From contig JAISMH010000180.1 of NCBI GenBank assembly GCA_031276855.1, forward strand, positions 1 to 35,114: 35,114 nt of DNA. The letters run 5' to 3'. The notes under the pieces are model-generated. The model had not been told where the DNA came from, ran no database searches, and was given only the letters and a program-made list of their open reading frames with translations. Each line of letters opens with the position of its first letter. Position 1 is the stretch's first letter. Source of the stretch: Synergistaceae bacterium (lineage in GTDB: Bacteria; Synergistota; Synergistia; Synergistales; Aminobacteriaceae). Below, one piece after another: positions 25,373 through 33,445 of this stretch. A program made the translations under genes and the position numbers.

Positions 25373-26041
25373 GTGGGCTTCGTCGTCACCCTGGACGGGC
25401 CGGCGGGAGCGGGGAAAAGCTCCGTGGCCAGGCGTTTGGCGGAGAGTCTGGGGATTCGTTACCTGGACACCGGCGCCATTTACCGGGCGGTGGCGTACCG
25501 TCTGGACGGTGAGGGAATTTCCTCTCAGGAAGAGGAGAAGATGGCCGAATCCCTGGCGTCGATCAAAATACGCATCGAAAAGGAAGGTATCTTTGTCAAT
25601 GACGAGAATGTGACCGGGTCGATACGTTCCGCGCGTATCGACCGTATTGTTTCCGGCTACGCGGCATCGAAAGCCGTCCGCGGGGCGCTGCTGGGCCTGC
25701 AGCGGGCCCAGGCGGACTACGGCGATCTGATCGCGGACGGCCGGGATACGGGCAGCGTCGTATTTCCCGGCGCGGATATCAAGTTCTTCCTGACGGCCAC
25801 CCCTCAGGCGCGGGCGGAGCGGCGCTATAAGGAGCTTTTGCGGAAGGGCGAGGCGGCCGTCTACGAAGAGGTGCTGGCCCGGATACACGAGAGGGACGAC
25901 GCCGACAGCCGCCGCGAGATCGCGCCCCTTCTGGAGCCGCCGGACTCCATCCGCGTCGATACGTCCCCGATGAGCGAAGACGAGGTCGTGCATCGGCTGC
26001 TTTCCCTGATTAAACGCCGAATGACGCAGGACATCGACTGA
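25373..26041 (+). CDS. cmk: Cytidylate kinase
   Basis: This 222-residue enzyme phosphorylates CMP and dCMP. The P-loop is GPAGAGKSSVARRLA (residues 8-22), followed by LDTGAIYRAVAYRL for CMP binding, IADGRDTGSVVFPGADIKFF with the Arg-Asp pair, and a RIHERDDADSRREIAPL lid. The start is GTG 25373, about 10 nt after AAGGAG in the HDOD gene's end. Its stop codon lies at the beginning of the 68-bp tandem array. Confidence 0.94.
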   Translation: MGFVVTLDGPAGAGKSSVARRLAESLGIRYLDTGAIYRAVAYRLDGEGISSQEEEKMAESLASIKIRIEKEGIFVNDENVTGSIRSARIDRIVSGYAASKAVRGALLGLQRAQADYGDLIADGRDTGSVVFPGADIKFFLTATPQARAERRYKELLRKGEAAVYEEVLARIHERDDADSRREIAPLLEPPDSIRVDTSPMSEDEVVHRLLSLIKRRMTQDID

Positions 26042-26268
26042 GCCCCGCCCCCCCGAGTTGCAATCAGGGGTTTCAGGGGGGCCAGCGAGGCTCCGCAGGA
26101 ACCGAGCGAGCCCTGCCCCCCTGAGCTTCAATCAGGGGTTTCAGGGGGGCCAGCGAGGCCCCGCAGGGACCGAGCGAGCTCCGCCCCTCTGAGCTTCAAT
26201 CAGGGGTTTCAGGGGGGCCAGCGAGGTTCCGCAGGGACCGAGCGAGCTCCGCCCCCCTGAGTTTCAAT
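26040..26268 (+). repeat. 68-bp tandem repeat array, 3.4 units
   Basis: Units start at 26040, 26108, 26176 and 26244, each exactly 68 bp apart, with the fourth cut after about 25 bp. Each begins GAG-CCCGCC or GAGCTCCGCC, then CCCCTGAGCTTCAATCAGGG, and continues to TTTCAGGGGGGCCAGCGAGG. CCCCCCTGA pairs with TCAGGGGGG, so each unit forms a hairpin. The unit is the inverse of the core of elements A and B. It fills the cmk-plsC gap and overlaps the cmk stop. Confidence 0.9.
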
Positions 26269-26287
26269 GTCAGAAAGGATATGGTGT

Positions 26288-26941
26288 TTGTTGCTTTTCG
26301 AGAGGATTTTTTACAGCGTGGTGCGGGCGTTCTTTGCCGTTTTTTTCACCCTCTACAACCGCCTGTCCGTGCGGTGGGCGGAACCCCTTCCCCGCGGCGG
26401 CCGCGTGATCGTCGCCTCCAATCATTGCAGCAACTTGGACCCCATTCTCGTGGGTATCGCGTTTCCGCGCCGTCTGCGTTATTTCGCCAAAGAAGAGCTT
26501 TTCCGGCCCATTCTCTTCGGGAGGATCATCCGTCTTTTGGGGGCCGTCCCCGTTTCCCGCGCCGACAGCGCCTCCGCCGCGAGCGCGCTCAAAGGCTTTT
26601 TCCGGCTGCTGGAGGAGGGGAACGACGTCCTCATCTTCCCGGAGGGCTCACGCTCACCGGACGGAAACCTGCTTCCGCTGGAGGGGGGCGTCGGGCTGAT
26701 CGCGGTCCACTCGAAAGCCGATATCCTGCCCGTCTTCATCCGGGGTTCTTACGACGCCATGCCGCCCGGAGCCGTTCTGATCAAGCCCCGCAAGATCACC
26801 GTGACCTTCGGCAGACGGATCGTCTTCGACCCCGAGCTCCGCGGGGGAAAAGACGCCCGCGAAAAGATAATGGCGGAGCTGACGCGGTCCCTGAAGGCTC
26901 TGGAGCAGGGCGAAGAGCAGCGGAGGGCGTCATGTTCCTGA
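26288..26941 (+). CDS. plsC: 1-acyl-sn-glycerol-3-phosphate acyltransferase
   Basis: This enzyme of about 217 residues acylates lysophosphatidate at the inner membrane. The catalytic H-x4-D is in ASNHCSNLDPIL (near residue 47), motif III is FPEGSRSPDG near 122, and a hydrophobic N-terminal stretch (IFYSVVRAFFAVFFTLY) anchors it. The start is uncertain: ATG 26267 lies in the 68-bp array and has no SD, while TTG 26288 is 9 nt after AAAGGA (26273-26278) and is preferred; GTG 26318 is also possible. cmk-plsC neighbourhood is common. It overlaps yicC by 10 bp. Confidence 0.9.
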   Translation: MLLFERIFYSVVRAFFAVFFTLYNRLSVRWAEPLPRGGRVIVASNHCSNLDPILVGIAFPRRLRYFAKEELFRPILFGRIIRLLGAVPVSRADSASAASALKGFFRLLEEGNDVLIFPEGSRSPDGNLLPLEGGVGLIAVHSKADILPVFIRGSYDAMPPGAVLIKPRKITVTFGRRIVFDPELRGGKDAREKIMAELTRSLKALEQGEEQRRASCS

Positions 26942-27810
26942 GCATGACGGGCTTCGGCCGCGCCTCCCGCAATTTCCCGTGGGGGACGGCCGCGTTTGAA
27001 ATCACGTCGGTCAACCATCGCTATCAGGAGAGCGCCATCCGCCTTCCGAAGGAACTGGCCTCCCTCGAAAGCCGCATTGCCGCGTCGCTGCGCTCGGCCC
27101 TGAGGCGGGGCAAGGTTCGCTTCTCCGCGGAAATCGCCTGGGCTCCCGGTTTCAACGCCGCGAAGCTGAACGAGGACGCGATCTTTTCTTACTGCACTCA
27201 ATTGAAGGGCCTTTCCGACCGTCTCGGCATCCCGGCCGCGGCGGACTTGGCGTCTCTTTTGGTTCTGCCCGGGGTCTGCGATTTTCCGAACGCGCCCGGG
27301 GAAGGCGAGGACGAGGAGGTCTGGGACGCCCTGCTGGGCGAGGCGGTGAGCGCCCTGATGGAGATGAAAAAGTCCGAGGGGGCCAAGCTGGCGGAGGCCG
27401 TCGAGTCGGATCTGGCGGAGTTCGCGCGGCTGGTCGGGCTTCTCTCGGCACGGTGGGACATCGCCGCGCCGGAGGCGCTGGACGCCCTGAAGATCCGGGT
27501 CGAGAAGGTCATGGAGCGTTTCGGCGCGGACATCGACCCGAACCGCGCCGCGCAGGAGGTCTCCCTGCTGGCGGACAAGTGGGACGTCTCGGAGGAGCTG
27601 ACCCGCCTTTCGGCCCATATCGCGAAGTTCCGGGAGATAGCGTCGGGGAAGGAGTCCGAGGGCCGCAAGCTCGACTTCCTCATCCAGGAGATGAACAGGG
27701 AGGTCAACACCATGGGCTCCAAGGTGAACGACGCGGAGTTCCGCTGGATGGTCGTCGAGGCGAAGTCGTGCCTCGAACGGATACGGGAACAGATCCAGAA
27801 CGTGGAGTGA
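26932..27810 (+). CDS. YicC-family endoribonuclease
   Basis: This 292-residue protein belongs to the YicC/YloC family, which has been reported to be an endoribonuclease. Markers are the N-terminal MTGFGRASRNFPWGTAAFEI, SVNHRYQESAIRLP, ALRRGKVRFSAEI, and the highly conserved C-terminal EGRKLDFLIQEMNREVNTMG with NDAEFRWMVVEAKSCLERIREQ. ATG 26932 overlaps the plsC end and follows GGAGGG. It precedes gmk, the standard yicC-gmk-rpoZ order. Its stop lies in a 17-bp duplication. Confidence 0.92.
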   Translation: MFLSMTGFGRASRNFPWGTAAFEITSVNHRYQESAIRLPKELASLESRIAASLRSALRRGKVRFSAEIAWAPGFNAAKLNEDAIFSYCTQLKGLSDRLGIPAAADLASLLVLPGVCDFPNAPGEGEDEEVWDALLGEAVSALMEMKKSEGAKLAEAVESDLAEFARLVGLLSARWDIAAPEALDALKIRVEKVMERFGADIDPNRAAQEVSLLADKWDVSEELTRLSAHIAKFREIASGKESEGRKLDFLIQEMNREVNTMGSKVNDAEFRWMVVEAKSCLERIREQIQNVE

Positions 27811-27835
27811 GCGCATGAGTGGAGTGAGCGGATGA
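27802..27835 (+). repeat. 17-bp tandem duplication at the yicC/gmk junction
   Basis: GTGGAGTGAGCGCATGA (27802-27818) is followed by GTGGAGTGAGCGGATGA (27819-27835), one mismatch. The first copy contains the yicC stop TGA and an ATG at 27815 that opens a six-codon frame (MSGVSG) ending at TGA 27833-27835, overlapping the gmk start ATG in the second copy. Confidence 0.85.
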
Positions 27836-28428
27836 TGGGAAGCGCGGGGGCGGACAATGTCAGGAAGGGAAGACTTTTCATTCTCGCCGGTCCCAGCGGG
27901 GCGGGCAAAGGGACGCTGAGGACCCGGGCCCTTTCGGACATCGAGGATCTGACCTACTCCATATCCTGTACCACGCGGGCGCCGCGCCCGGGCGAGCGCG
28001 AGGGGGCGGACTACCGCTTTCTCTCCAGAGAGGATTTCGAGGACAGGGTGAAGCGCGGGCTGTTTCTGGAACACGCCCTCGTTCACGGCAACCTTTACGG
28101 CACTCTGCGCGGGGATGTCGAGCGGGAAACGGCCGCGGGGCGCGACGTTCTGCTGGAAATCGACGTGCAGGGGGCCGAGTGCGTCCGCCGTCTCGTCCCG
28201 GATTGTGTTATGCTTTTCATCGCGCCGCCGTCGCTGGAAGTCTTGGAGGCGCGTCTGCGCGGCCGGGGGACGGAGTCCGAGGAAACGATCGGGCTTAGGC
28301 TCGAAAACGCGAAAAAGGAAATGGCGCGGGCCGCGGAGTACGACCGCGTCATCGTCAACGACGATCTGGAGCGCGCCGCCGGGGAACTGCGCAGCGTCAT
28401 TTTGAGTTGCAGGGAAAAAAACTGGTAA
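27832..28428 (+). CDS. gmk: Guanylate kinase
   Basis: This 198-residue enzyme converts GMP to GDP. The P-loop is AGPSGAGKGTLRTRAL (about residues 18-33), followed by ISCTTRAPRPGEREGADYRF for GMP binding, then HGNLYGT, LLEIDVQGAECVRRL and FIAPPSLEVLEARLRGRGTE. Two adjacent ATGs (27832, 27835) are possible starts; both lie in the 17-bp duplication and have no strong SD, so coupling to upstream translation seems likely. It is followed by rpoZ after a gap of about 100 bp. Confidence 0.95.
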   Translation: MMGSAGADNVRKGRLFILAGPSGAGKGTLRTRALSDIEDLTYSISCTTRAPRPGEREGADYRFLSREDFEDRVKRGLFLEHALVHGNLYGTLRGDVERETAAGRDVLLEIDVQGAECVRRLVPDCVMLFIAPPSLEVLEARLRGRGTESEETIGLRLENAKKEMARAAEYDRVIVNDDLERAAGELRSVILSCREKNW

Positions 28429-28500
28429 CCGTTCAAATCAAACCCCATATTGGGTATGAAATAGTAAGCTTGACGCTTACCATGATGCAAAAGTTATGAA
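28426..28500. repeat. Intergenic sequence with shared TAACCGTTCAAA end (element C)
   Basis: TGGTAACCGTTCAAA starts at the gmk stop codon and is the exact inverse of the end of element B; the same GTAACCGTTCAA occurs at the rsmB stop in element A. The rest (CCCCATATTGGG, a small palindrome, and AGTAAGCTTGACGCTTACCA, with GTAAGC/GCTTAC inverted) forms two hairpins before the rpoZ SD. No promoter is clear. Confidence 0.5.
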
Positions 28501-28530
28501 AAAAAGCTGCGGGGAAAAGGGAGAGAAGGC

Positions 28531-28800
28531 ATGAAGTTTTACGACATTGACGTTCTCGAAAACAAGTGCGGCATCGACAACAAGTACAAGATCACGGCGC
28601 TGGTGGCGGCCCGGGCGCGGTGGCTCTCCGAGCAGAAGACGATCCTCGACGCGAGGCCGGAGAACGAAAAATACCTGACGATGGCGCTTCTGGAGGTCGA
28701 GGAGGAGAAACTGCCGGACGAGTGGGTCGCGGAGCTGTGGGACGAGCCGCGTCCGGTTAAAAAAGGAACGAAAGCGAAAAAGCCGAAAGGCTCCCGCTGA
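28531..28800 (+). CDS. rpoZ: RNA polymerase omega subunit
   Basis: This 89-residue protein matches omega: IDNKYKITALVAARARWLSE corresponds to the conserved core (NRFxLVxxAAxRAR), followed by the helix EKYLTMALLEVEEEKLP. Omega helps fold the beta-prime subunit. The tail is short and basic (KKGTKAKKPKGSR). Its place between gmk and coaBC supports the call. The ATG follows GGGAGAG. Confidence 0.88.
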   Translation: MKFYDIDVLENKCGIDNKYKITALVAARARWLSEQKTILDARPENEKYLTMALLEVEEEKLPDEWVAELWDEPRPVKKGTKAKKPKGSR

Positions 28801-28814
28801 GGAGGAGATTTCAA

Positions 28815-30026
28815 TTGCTGGGGTGGAAGCGCTCCCGTAAGGTGCTCCTGTGCGTCACGGGCGGCATCGCCGCCTATAAGATTCCCGAGCTCGTCAGCCG
28901 GCTGAGGAAGCTGGCCTGCGAGGTCGAGACGGTCATGACCAAAACGGCGGAGACGCTGGTCAGCCCTCTGACCCTGTCCACCCTTTCGGGACGGCGGACG
29001 TGGCTGCAGGACGATTTTTTCGCGTCGTCCCGCGGCTTCGAGATCCCGCATATCCGTCTGGCCGACTGGGCGGAGGTCGTCGTCGTCGCGCCCTGTTCCG
29101 CCAACACCGCCTCCGGCGCCGCCCACGGGCGGGCCGCCAGTATCGTGGAGGCCGCTCTTCTGGCGACGCGCGCGCCCGTCGTCCTTTTCCCCGCGATGAA
29201 TGTCCACATGTTCGAGCACCCGGCGACGCGGCAGAACCTGCGCGTTCTGGCGGATCGCGGCGTGCGCGTCGTGGACCCCGAATTCGGCTCTCTGGCCTGC
29301 GGGTACGAGGGCAAGGGGCGCCTGCCGGAGACCGATCTGATCCTCGAGGAGATCGCCTTCGCCCTTTCCCCGAAACGCGATCTCGCGGGGAAGCACGTTC
29401 TGGTCACGGCCGGGCCGACGCAGGAATATCTGGACCCCGTGCGCTTCATCTCCAACCCGAGCAGCGGCAAAATGGGGCTCGCCATGGCGAGGACGGCGTG
29501 GTATCGGGGCGCGGAGGTGCGCGTGATTCTGGGCCCGGTCCCCGCCGGAAACACGCACGGACTGGAGATTCACAATGTCGTCTCGGCGTTGGAGATGCGC
29601 GACGCCGTCATGCGCCATCTGGATTGGGCGGACTACATCGTCAAGGCGGCGGCGGTCGGCGACTACCGCGCGAAGGACAGGGCCGGCCATAAAATCAAAC
29701 GCGAAAAACAGGCCGAACTCACCTTGGAGCTGACCCGGAACCCGGACATCGCGGCGGAGGCCGGCGCGGCCAAAAGGGCCGGCCAGTTCCTGATCGGGTT
29801 CGCCGCGGAGACCGACTCCGTCGCGGAAAACGCGCGCGCGAAGATGGAGCGCAAGGGACTGGACGTCATTCTGGCCAACGACGTGTCCGCGCCCGGCATC
29901 GGGTTCGGAAGCGACTCCAACGCCGTTCGGATGATCTCCCGCGAGAGCGAGAGCGCGATCTCCGGCAGCAAGGAAGAGGTCGCCGACGCCGTTTGGGAAA
30001 ACCTGCTCGCCGGCGGGGCGCAATAA
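28815..30026 (+). CDS. coaBC: Bifunctional phosphopantothenoylcysteine decarboxylase / phosphopantothenate-cysteine ligase
   Basis: This 403-residue coenzyme A biosynthesis enzyme carries the FMN-dependent decarboxylase (CoaC) first and the ligase (CoaB) second. CoaC: VTGGIAAYKIPELVSRL near residue 15, active-site His in EIPHIRLADWAE near 79, PAMNVHMFEHPAT near 127, and the substrate-lid Cys in LACGYEGKGRLPE near 162. CoaB: VTAGPTQEYLDPVRFISNPS, SSGKMGLAMA, KAAAVGDYR near 277 and IGFAAETD. The start is TTG 28815, 7 nt after GGAGGAGA. It closely follows rpoZ. Confidence 0.95.
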   Translation: MLGWKRSRKVLLCVTGGIAAYKIPELVSRLRKLACEVETVMTKTAETLVSPLTLSTLSGRRTWLQDDFFASSRGFEIPHIRLADWAEVVVVAPCSANTASGAAHGRAASIVEAALLATRAPVVLFPAMNVHMFEHPATRQNLRVLADRGVRVVDPEFGSLACGYEGKGRLPETDLILEEIAFALSPKRDLAGKHVLVTAGPTQEYLDPVRFISNPSSGKMGLAMARTAWYRGAEVRVILGPVPAGNTHGLEIHNVVSALEMRDAVMRHLDWADYIVKAAAVGDYRAKDRAGHKIKREKQAELTLELTRNPDIAAEAGAAKRAGQFLIGFAAETDSVAENARAKMERKGLDVILANDVSAPGIGFGSDSNAVRMISRESESAISGSKEEVADAVWENLLAGGAQ

Positions 30027-30071: not shown

Positions 30072-31979
30072 TTGCTTCCGCGCGTCGAGGTTCTCGTTCC
30101 GGGGCCCTGGTGGAACTCTCTTTCCTACACTTGGAACTCCCTTTCCTGCGCCCGCGGTCTGGATCGCGCTCCGACGGAAGGCGCACGGGTTCGTGTTCCT
30201 TTGGGAAGGGGGCAGCGGGTGGGCTTCATTCTGAGCGTGTCCGCTCCGCCGAAAGAGATCGGGACCGTCAGGGAAATTCTGGAAGTTCTGGATGACGGAT
30301 GCGTCCTGGGAGACGACCTCTGGGGCCTCGCCGGCTGGATGGGAAAAACTTTCCTGTGCGGCATGGGCGAGGCCCTTCAGGTTATCTGTCCCCAACCTCT
30401 GCTGAAGGGCGAGCCCTTCCGGGAGGGCAAATTCTTCCCGGAAGGCAAGCCTTCGCTGAATGGCAAGCCTTCTCTGAATGACAAGCCTTCTCCGAATGGC
30501 GGGGCTTCTTCGGGGAGCGGGGAGTTTCGGGAGGTGTCGTTTTACCACCCCCTGGACGGGGAGCGTTTCGCGCGTTACCGCGAGATTCTTTCGTCCGCCG
30601 CGGGGCGTGTTTTGGTGTTGTTCCCGGAGACGCGGAGCGCCTCCTCTTTTTTTGCCGCCCTGCCGCCCGCCGTCAAAAAGGATTCGCTTCTGTGGCCGGG
30701 CTCGGGGGGAAAAAAGCTCTGGGACGCCTGGAAGGCGGCGGCGGGCGGGGTACGCGTCGTGGTCGGCGCTCCCGGCGCGGTGTTCGCTCCCTCGGCCTCA
30801 GGGGCGGTCTCAGAGACGGCTTTCGAGACGGTCATCGTGGACGACGAGTCCAACCCCGGCTATGTCTTTCTGCGCGCGCCCCGCGTTTCGGCGCGGAGCC
30901 TGGCGGGGCGGCGCGCCCTCCGCGCGAAGGCGTGCCTCGTTCTGGGCGGCCGGATGCCGGGGGCGAAAAGCTATCTGCGCTCCCGTCCCACACCCTCCTT
31001 TCTGCCCCGGCGCGACCGTTTCGTCTTCGTGGACATGGGGCGCTCCGTCAGAGCGGAGGTTCGGGGAGTGGAGGGAGAGCTTCCGCTCACCCGAGCTCTG
31101 CTGGAGCGCACCCGCGAGACTCTGGCGGGGGGGCGTCACGCGCTCTGGATCATGGATCGCAAGGGGCAGGCGGGGGAGGTGTACTGTTCCGACTGCGGGG
31201 CATCGCTCTTCTGCGGCCGCTGCGGGGCCCTCATGAGGAGCGAGGACGTGTCGGGCGCTTTGCGCTGTCTCAAATGCGGCGCGCGCGAGGTTCTTCCTCT
31301 CCACTGCCCGGTGTGCCGCGGCACGCTCTTGCGGGGGAAGCGGCCGGGATTGGAGGCGCTGCTTCCCTGGGCGGTCCGGTATATAAAAGGGTACGGGGTG
31401 CGCCTGGACGGGGCCGGCGGGGACCGGAAGCCCGTGAAACGCGGGGACCCTCCGTCTCTGGTTTTGGGGACCCGGAAGGTTCTGTCTCTCTGCGACTCCC
31501 TTGACGTGGGGCTTGCGGCGTGGCTGGATCTGGACGCCGAGGCGCGCAAGGTCGAGTACAACGCGAGGTTCCAGACGTTCAGCATGGTCTGGGAATCGTA
31601 TTGGCGGGGCAGCCGGGGCGAGGCGGAGGAGTCCGGGAGGACCGTCCTTCTGCAGACCCGCAGGCCGGGCGGGGGATGGCTGAACTCCTTCCGGCTGGGG
31701 TGGGGGCGTTTCTGGGACTCCGAGCTGAAGGAGCGCAAAGAGCTGGGCCTGCCTCCCTACGAGCTTCTGGTGCAGGTGGATCTGCCCGAAAACGAGGACC
31801 GGGAGGCTCTGACGCGTCTTCTGGAGCGCGCGAACTTTTCGGTGTCGAGCGGCGGGGACTCGTCCCCTCTGTGGCTGAGCGTGAAATCGACGGATTCTCT
31901 GGGGGCGGCCCTGGCTCCCCGCTTTGAAATCCGCCATTCCCGCTCCGGCTTCCCGGTCGTAACCGTCTGGACGGAATAA
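30072..31979 (+). CDS. priA: PriA-like primosomal protein with degenerate helicase domain
   Basis: The 635-residue protein has PriA layout: N-terminal 3'-DNA-binding domain (VEVLVPGPWWNSLSYTW, GARVRVPLGRGQRVGFILSV), motor region, zinc region and C-terminal domain (LGLPPYELLVQVDL). All eight zinc cysteines are kept, in four CxxC pairs at about residues 371-411. The motor is degenerate. The GVTGSGKTE Walker A is replaced by HPLDGERFA (about 157); the DEEH box reads VIVDDESNPGY (about 255); GSATP reads GGRMP; the GTQMIAKGLDF segment reads GTRKVLSLCDS; and QVAGRAGR reads ESYWRGSRG. ATPase activity is unlikely. Mycobacterial PriA also lacks helicase motifs. Tandem repeats lie near residues 14-27 and 113-142. 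The start is TTG 30072, with a weak SD. Confidence 0.87.
   Translation: MLPRVEVLVPGPWWNSLSYTWNSLSCARGLDRAPTEGARVRVPLGRGQRVGFILSVSAPPKEIGTVREILEVLDDGCVLGDDLWGLAGWMGKTFLCGMGEALQVICPQPLLKGEPFREGKFFPEGKPSLNGKPSLNDKPSPNGGASSGSGEFREVSFYHPLDGERFARYREILSSAAGRVLVLFPETRSASSFFAALPPAVKKDSLLWPGSGGKKLWDAWKAAAGGVRVVVGAPGAVFAPSASGAVSETAFETVIVDDESNPGYVFLRAPRVSARSLAGRRALRAKACLVLGGRMPGAKSYLRSRPTPSFLPRRDRFVFVDMGRSVRAEVRGVEGELPLTRALLERTRETLAGGRHALWIMDRKGQAGEVYCSDCGASLFCGRCGALMRSEDVSGALRCLKCGAREVLPLHCPVCRGTLLRGKRPGLEALLPWAVRYIKGYGVRLDGAGGDRKPVKRGDPPSLVLGTRKVLSLCDSLDVGLAAWLDLDAEARKVEYNARFQTFSMVWESYWRGSRGEAEESGRTVLLQTRRPGGGWLNSFRLGWGRFWDSELKERKELGLPPYELLVQVDLPENEDREALTRLLERANFSVSSGGDSSPLWLSVKSTDSLGAALAPRFEIRHSRSGFPVVTVWTE
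30111..30152 (+). repeat. 21-bp tandem duplication in priA
   Basis: Units 30111-30131 and 30132-30152 begin TGGAACTC and share TTTCCT; they encode WNSLSYT and WNSLSCA in the N-terminal DNA-binding domain. Confidence 0.7.
30408..30497 (+). repeat. 18-bp tandem repeats in priA linker
   Basis: Five in-frame 18-nt units (30408, 30426, 30444, 30462, 30480) encode GEPFRE, GKFFPE, GKPSLN, GKPSLN and DKPSPN, with a degenerate GGASSG after. The third and fourth units differ at one base, so expansion is recent. They lie between the DNA-binding domain and the motor region. Confidence 0.85.
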
Positions 31980-32723: not shown

Positions 32724-32797
32724 TGTTTGTTTTAGATTATAGTTTCAGACCATAGAATAAAAACGACGAAAATTTTTCGCAACGGGAAGTGAACGAA

Positions 32798-33445
32798 ATG
32801 GGAACGACAGCGCGCGAACCGGAAATGGGCTTGACCTTTGAAAAAGTCTGGGCGATGTTCCAGGAGTCGGATCGGCGTATGCAAAAAATGAATGAAGAGT
32901 TGGATCGGCGTATTCAGAAAATAAATGAAGAAACGGCCCAACAAATGCAAGAAACCGACCGAAAGATACAGGAGGTCGCCCGGCAGATGAAAGCGACTGA
33001 CGAGCGATTCGGGAAGCTGGGTCATCGTTTCGGGGAACTGGCGGAACATTTGGCAGCGCCCAACATCATACAGAAGTTCAACGCCCTCGGCTTCCACTTC
33101 GATGATATTTCCGGGCTGCGCCGAATTATCAAGGACGAGGGCAGCGGACAAAAAATTGCGGAGTTCGATATTCTCCTGGAAAACGGGGAGTCCATCATCG
33201 GTGTGGAGGTGAAGTCGAGGCCCTCCGAACGTGACGTGGAAGACCACGTGCGGCGGTTGGAGATACTTCGCCTCAACAAAGACAAGAAAGGCGACAAGCG
33301 GAAAATTTACGGCGCTCTGGCGGGAGCCATCATGCTTGAAGGGGTTAAAACCTCCATCCTCAAAGCAGGGCTTTACGTCGTCACACAGACCGGGGACACT
33401 GTGAAGATCGATGTTCCGGAGGGCTTCACCCCTAAAGCCTGGTAA
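32798..33445 (+). CDS. Coiled-coil protein with PD-(D/E)XK nuclease-like C-terminus
   Basis: The 215-residue protein resembles the DUF3782-type proteins common in bacteria with many paralogues. Residues 10-90 form a coiled coil built from 11-residue repeats (SDRRMQKMNEE, LDRRIQKINEE, then less exact ones). The C-terminal half has a restriction-nuclease-like core: IAEFDILLENGESIIGVEVK, with the Asp and the ExK of PD-(D/E)XK, near residues 122-141. Function is unknown; DNA or RNA cleavage is a guess. ATG 32798 is preferred over GTG 32789. The 74-bp upstream gap is AT-rich with a CGAAAATTTTTCG palindrome. Base composition is lower in GC than neighbours, which may point to transfer. Confidence 0.72.
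   Translation: MGTTAREPEMGLTFEKVWAMFQESDRRMQKMNEELDRRIQKINEETAQQMQETDRKIQEVARQMKATDERFGKLGHRFGELAEHLAAPNIIQKFNALGFHFDDISGLRRIIKDEGSGQKIAEFDILLENGESIIGVEVKSRPSERDVEDHVRRLEILRLNKDKKGDKRKIYGALAGAIMLEGVKTSILKAGLYVVTQTGDTVKIDVPEGFTPKAW
32867..32932 (+). repeat. 33-bp tandem repeat coding coiled-coil hendecads
   Basis: Units 32867-32899 and 32900-32932 both contain GGATCGGCGTAT and AATGAAGA, differ at few bases, and encode SDRRMQKMNEE and LDRRIQKINEE. Confidence 0.8.

Follow-up and report, generated by a model that had tools for sequence, protein, structure and literature searches.

The priA Locus and the Domains of Its Product

The window, a stretch of 35,114 nucleotides from a Synergistaceae bacterium, carries on its forward strand a priA gene (30072..31979) that begins with TTG and encodes a protein of 635 amino acids, assigned from its open frame, from matches to PriA family models, and from alignment with PriA chains of the PDB. 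The original prediction, made from the letters of this stretch, had claimed an open frame at this position, and all 635 codons bear it out. Placement of the host in Synergistota, on which part of that prediction depended, is likewise upheld by the relatives found, which are Synergistaceae MAGs and Fretibacterium fastidiosum. Directly upstream of priA on the same strand lies coaBC (28815..30026; Pfam DFP and Flavoprotein), a conserved neighbor present in 102 of 106 Synergistota loci and placed in the same order in Bacillus, Listeria, and Monoglobus. This arrangement, shared across the phylum and with these three genera, identifies the window gene as the priA ortholog of a Synergistales bacterium. 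The genes leading up to it follow the order cmk - acyltransferase - yicC - gmk - coaBC (25373-30026; Pfam). At 32789-33442, between pcm and cysS, a 218-residue coiled-coil protein is encoded that scores 23.5 bits against a DUF3782 cut-off of 24.4.

The protein retains the 3'-DNA-binding domain (3'BD; residues 6-107, 30087..30392, forward strand; Pfam PF17764, PriA_3primeBD, E 3.8e-16). Loss of the binding pocket of this domain through replacement of D17 by Thr or Ser was considered and rejected, as canonical PriAs also vary at D17. The N terminus had been predicted to be intact, which holds for the 3'BD and fails for what follows: neither the winged-helix domain nor the start of helicase domain 1 is left, and a short linker (30393..30521, forward strand) stands in their place. 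The distance from the 3'BD to the Walker position is 58 residues in the window protein and 30-55 in other Synergistota, as against 120-210 in canonical PriAs, and the missing region is absent phylum-wide in the sampled Synergistota PriAs. Within the linker, an 18-bp tandem repeat (30444-30500; 3.2 copies, unit GGCAAGCCTTCTCTGAAT) encodes a GKPSLN/DKPSPN-like peptide; the seven aligned named relatives are without it. Two short insertions, at residues 22-28 (30135-30155) and 241-248 (30792-30815), are likewise absent from seven aligned relatives.

The cysteine-rich region (31185..31316, forward strand) sits within lobe 2, as in PriA orthologs, and its eight zinc cysteines (C372, C375, C381, C384, C399, C402, C412, and C415) are not only all kept, as had been predicted, but are invariant in 93 of 93 Synergistales sequences in a MAFFT alignment. 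The claim that the C terminus remains also stands: the C-terminal domain (CTD; 31659..31976, forward strand) is covered by HHalign and keeps its R..LPP stretch, while having diverged too far to be matched by the Pfam model PF18074 (PriA_C).

A Pfam scan of the window protein returned no match to DEAD, ResIII, or Helicase_C, whereas a canonical control, the Bacillus PriA, matches these three and the 3'BD in the same library. NCBIfam PriA models do match the window protein, but with scores far under their cut-offs; at 107 bits against a TIGR00595 cut-off of 230, it falls outside that priA equivalog. Residues 36-602 align to solved PriA chains (phmmer; 6dcr/8fak), and an HHalign comparison of its lobes with PriA gives 100% probability over 610 columns. 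An AlphaFold model built from 8 sequences is weak (mean pLDDT 62, pTM 0.41); its top PDB matches in a Foldseek search are PriA, the first of them being an E. coli winged-helix deletion.

Motor Motifs and Their Replacements Across Synergistota

The former helicase motifs were placed by MAFFT alignment with canonical references and by an independent HHalign profile-profile alignment, and the two agree. All six lie on the forward strand. The Walker A element, motif I, now reads PLDGERFAR (30549..30575; both methods), with LDGERF falling on GSGKT and R165 on the lysine that is K230 in E. coli. Motif II, DEEH, has become DDES (30840..30851; both methods), and motif III, GSATP, has become GGRMP (30945..30959; both methods). 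Motif IV is now WIMDRKG (31146..31166; both methods), in which W359 (93 of 93 Synergistales) and D362 (90 of 93) are newly fixed. Motifs V/Va are replaced by GTRKVLSLCDSLDVGLAAWLDLDAE (31467..31541; both methods), with R468 and W484 newly fixed, and motif VI, QVAGRAGR, reads ESYWRGSR in both methods (ESYWRG at 31593..31610), with S509 in 93 of 93 sequences and G513 in 92 of 93. The prediction that every motor motif had been changed is thus correct for the four replacements that it named, and it overstates the case for single residues, as E259 (the second Glu of DEEH, 93 of 93), the motif VI arginine R512, and D486/D488 persist.

Of 16 catalytic positions scored, the expected residue is present at 14-16 in seven canonical PriAs and at 4 in the window protein; the range is 1-6 in 93 Synergistales, 2-4 in five sequences from two deeper families, and 0 in two actinobacterial PriAs. 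All 98 aligned Synergistota PriAs (93/93 Synergistales and 5/5 deeper) have arginine in place of the Walker lysine, and none of them has the Walker A signature or the QVAGRAGR arginine-finger signature of motif VI. Other positions lost in these proteins include the G-G-K-T of Walker A, the Thr of motif III, the Gly of motif V, and further positions of motif VI, and gaps stand opposite part of the Walker loop in 4 of the 5 deeper sequences. One mark of a PriA pseudohelicase of the Deinococcus kind is a degenerate Walker A/B in a PriA ortholog, and the window protein is such an ortholog. In E. coli, the K230R change abolishes the ATPase and helicase activities of PriA (PMC4504706 and references there). 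Judged from these replacements, the Synergistota PriAs are inferred neither to hydrolyze ATP nor to unwind DNA; nucleotide binding without hydrolysis, by way of the retained acidic residues and R512, is possible.

The aligned set comprises 93 Synergistales PriAs and 5 from two deeper families. A protein search found a PriA homolog in 175 of 188 genomes of the phylum, and many of the 13 others are incomplete or fragmented assemblies. The TIGR00595 cut-off is passed in only 4 of the 188, all from the two deeper families, and Walker A and motif VI are lacking from these four sequences too. No sampled genome therefore showed a motor-bearing PriA, and the motor-free form appears from these comparisons to be a phylum-wide state, not a peculiarity of one organism. 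In the deepest family (L035, genome G005), PriA is an intermediate form: it shares 33% identity with Bacillus PriA across 97% of the query and has kept its matches to Helicase_C and PriA_C, from which it follows that decay is graded within the phylum. The PriAs of the second deeper family (L036-L039, genomes G001-G004) are also intermediate, their Walker loop lying partly opposite gaps in the alignment, and the intermediates of both families should be useful for dating the loss of the motor. Two findings had been named beforehand as counting against motor loss, a second full PriA and conserved motifs in close relatives. The window's genome contains no second PriA, its other TIGR00595 matches being RecG, UvrB, and Mfd, and the relatives show no intact motif set. 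Two motorless priA copies occur in one relative (genome G102, contigs C24 and C25; L009), each with 62-63% identity to the window protein; this MAG has 9% contamination, and its two copies possibly come from two organisms.

Selection on the former motor was assessed as dN/dS by region over 12 non-overlapping close pairs. Values are 0.143 for lobe 1, 0.12-0.15 for lobe 2, 0.15 for the zinc region, 0.16 for the CTD, 0.19 for the 3'BD, and 0.31 for the linker. Among the Synergistales PriAs, whose median pairwise identity is 38%, 50 columns are at least 95% fixed, and 17 of these differ from canonical PriA. Former helicase motifs hold nine of these 17 newly fixed residues, among them R165, W359, and S509 (each 93/93), more than their share of columns would give (hypergeometric P 6e-4). 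Low dN/dS in the lobes and newly fixed motif residues despite such divergence argue that purifying selection acts on the former motor lobes, which have been rebuilt rather than left to drift. That the motor is lost from a protein still under selection, as the original prediction had proposed, thus draws support from the motif alignment and from the lobe dN/dS of 0.12-0.15.

Candidate Role as a Fork-binding Scaffold

Loss of the motor from a protein that is yet kept under selection points most readily to a scaffold that recognizes forks. The window PriA is quite probably a pseudohelicase of this kind, binding forks independently of ATP and recruiting DnaB, probably together with DciA. D-loops and abandoned forks would be recognized by the 3'BD together with the other parts of the scaffold, and DnaB, probably along with DciA, would be recruited to a docking platform made of the zinc region and remodeled lobes. 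DnaB would then be placed on lagging-strand DNA that is already single-stranded or that has been exposed by RecG, RecQ, or a UvrD-type enzyme. Studies of other PriAs offer precedents for these steps. In E. coli, a DnaB-loading assay uses the ATPase-inactive Lys230Ala PriA, and PriA-PriB restart in vivo does not require ATPase or helicase activity (PMC10175261). Fork binding rotates the zinc region of E. coli PriA, giving a pore for single-stranded DNA and exposing partner sites (PMC10175261, PMC13377028). The PriA of Deinococcus radiodurans has no ATPase or helicase activity but binds single-stranded DNA, forks, and DnaB (PMC4504706), and by analogy the Synergistota PriA is inferred to act likewise, its likely partners being DnaB and DciA.

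The complement of candidate partners is compatible with such steps. The window's genome encodes DnaB, DciA, RecG, and RecQ as well as UvrB and Mfd, and in the UvrD family it has two UvrD-type helicases, one split match, and one weak match. DciA in Synergistetes was reported earlier (PMC5109545). The search for DnaB/DnaI-type loaders that had been proposed at the outset recovers DnaB and DciA, but no evident DnaC/DnaI and no DnaD: two PF01695 matches in this genome resemble DnaA (a 481-residue frame) and a ClpB-like ATPase (an 897-residue frame), readings based on frame length and match position, and a DnaD/DnaB_2-type loader is absent from 31 genomes, the window's own included. Model searches of the window's genome likewise returned no DnaT. 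Counting against the scaffold explanation, DnaB or DciA is a presumed partner of the Synergistota PriA, and in control genomes from other phyla DciA coexists with an apparently canonical PriA as well.

Several other explanations for these sequences have been weighed. The window comes from an assembly of 182 contigs and its protein is unlike model PriAs at nearly every motif, as might be expected from a sequencing error, an assembly artifact, or local decay toward a pseudogene in a single MAG. This explanation is as good as refuted, as 93 Synergistales PriAs share these replacements, among them that of F. fastidiosum NC_021038, which is labeled "complete sequence," and those of single-contig genomes, and as the reading frames stay open and most pairs with dS <0.9 give a dN/dS of 0.11-0.28. 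Persistence of acidic residues in motif II and of one arginine in motif VI, along with strong fixation of new residues, could instead be taken to mean that the motor works, with ATP bound by unconventional residues (R165, E259, R512, and the new W, R, and D positions). It is very improbable given that K230R alone silences the E. coli enzyme, that the other Walker, motif III, motif V, and motif VI positions are lost too, and that the Walker loop is partly aligned to gaps in most of the deeper sequences. A further proposal, that the PriA fold has left replication restart for another zinc- and DNA-linked role, deserves somewhat more weight while still being improbable. The order-specific fixed residues, the missing winged-helix region, and a CTD beneath Pfam detection would all fit it, but the 3'BD and the entire zinc site are conserved, the genome has no other PriA, and the gene has kept its ancestral position.

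Likeness to Known PriAs and Origin of the Motorless State

Comparison with characterized PriAs illustrates both how much the Synergistota protein shares with known systems and where it departs from them. Like the canonical enzymes of E. coli and Bacillus, it has the order 3'BD, HD1, HD2 with zinc insert, and CTD, and in Bacillus also the coaBC neighbor; unlike it, they have a functional SF2 motor, a winged helix, and TIGR00595 scores above the cut-off. In the E. coli variants K230R and K230A the same lysine is changed, and these ATPase-dead proteins still assemble primosomes, but they carry one change in an intact motor and act with PriB, DnaT, and DnaC, whereas the window's genome has neither a DnaT match nor an evident match to DnaC/DnaI. 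The condition proposed for the Synergistota protein is the one that these laboratory variants imitate and that D. radiodurans PriA displays in nature. The Deinococcus-Thermus PriA (Lopper 2015, PMC4504706) is closer: it too keeps its DNA-binding parts, has lost motifs I and II, carries Arg for the Walker Lys, and occurs with no clear priB or dnaT. It differs in that the Deinococcus pseudohelicase has been proven experimentally and the Synergistota protein is known from its sequence, and in that winged-helix loss and the W/D/R/S/G signature of Synergistales are described for Synergistota only. Actinobacterial PriAs (Tsukamurella, Nonomuraea, and Microbacterium), which have been called "smaller and very divergent" (PMC1193525), likewise have a short linker instead of the winged helix. 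The two that were scored have lost the motor set as in Synergistota, but their replacements differ, with WDD for motif II and PRRGY for motif IV, and in Tsukamurella and Microbacterium priA stands behind metK and not behind coaBC.

The PriA pseudohelicase is therefore a known kind, of which D. radiodurans is the example, and Synergistota is a third lineage. Because no paper on a primosomal PriA in Synergistetes was found in the open-access full-text literature, the occurrence of this kind in Synergistota, its extent over the whole phylum, the loss of the winged helix, and the newly fixed residues are to that extent additions to it.

The suggestion that the window represents an independent case was not demonstrated. 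D. radiodurans is a precedent with the same Lys-to-Arg change (PMC4504706), and Deinococcota and Synergistota are placed together, with Thermotogota, in the proposed DST clade (PMC12640082). A single loss of the motor in an ancestor that Deinococcota and Synergistota had in common, hence no independent loss, would be consistent with this grouping, with arginine at the Walker lysine in both phyla, and with a tree of Synergistota, canonical, and actinobacterial PriAs in which Synergistota occupy one side of a 97/98 branch and the canonical and actinobacterial PriAs the other. One clade of Synergistota and actinobacterial PriAs is also not rejected (AU p 0.447), and a Lys-to-Arg change is common and could recur. 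Overall, a single loss is a possibility on the unlikely side; it is compatible with the scaffold explanation and competes only with the claim of independence. A fuller version, put forward more tentatively still, is that the motor was lost once before the two phyla split, with the Walker lysine replaced and the winged helix lost early, and that the lobes were then rebuilt in Synergistales as a new, fixed W-D-R-S-G surface for loading DnaB together with DciA. If this were true, ATP-free restart would be an ancient and stable mode across two phyla.

The PriA motor is, as far as is known, near-universal, even though E. coli survives its loss. A phylum that keeps PriA without the motor or the winged helix, and in which no DnaD and, in the window's genome, no DnaT was found, makes the purpose of the PriA ATPase testable by comparison. 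As the Synergistota PriAs score far under the family-model cut-offs, annotation may overlook them or wrongly label them helicases. Together, Synergistota, Deinococcus-Thermus, and Actinobacteria point to a recurring or ancient state in which PriA may serve as a scaffold, one able to coexist with a DciA loader.
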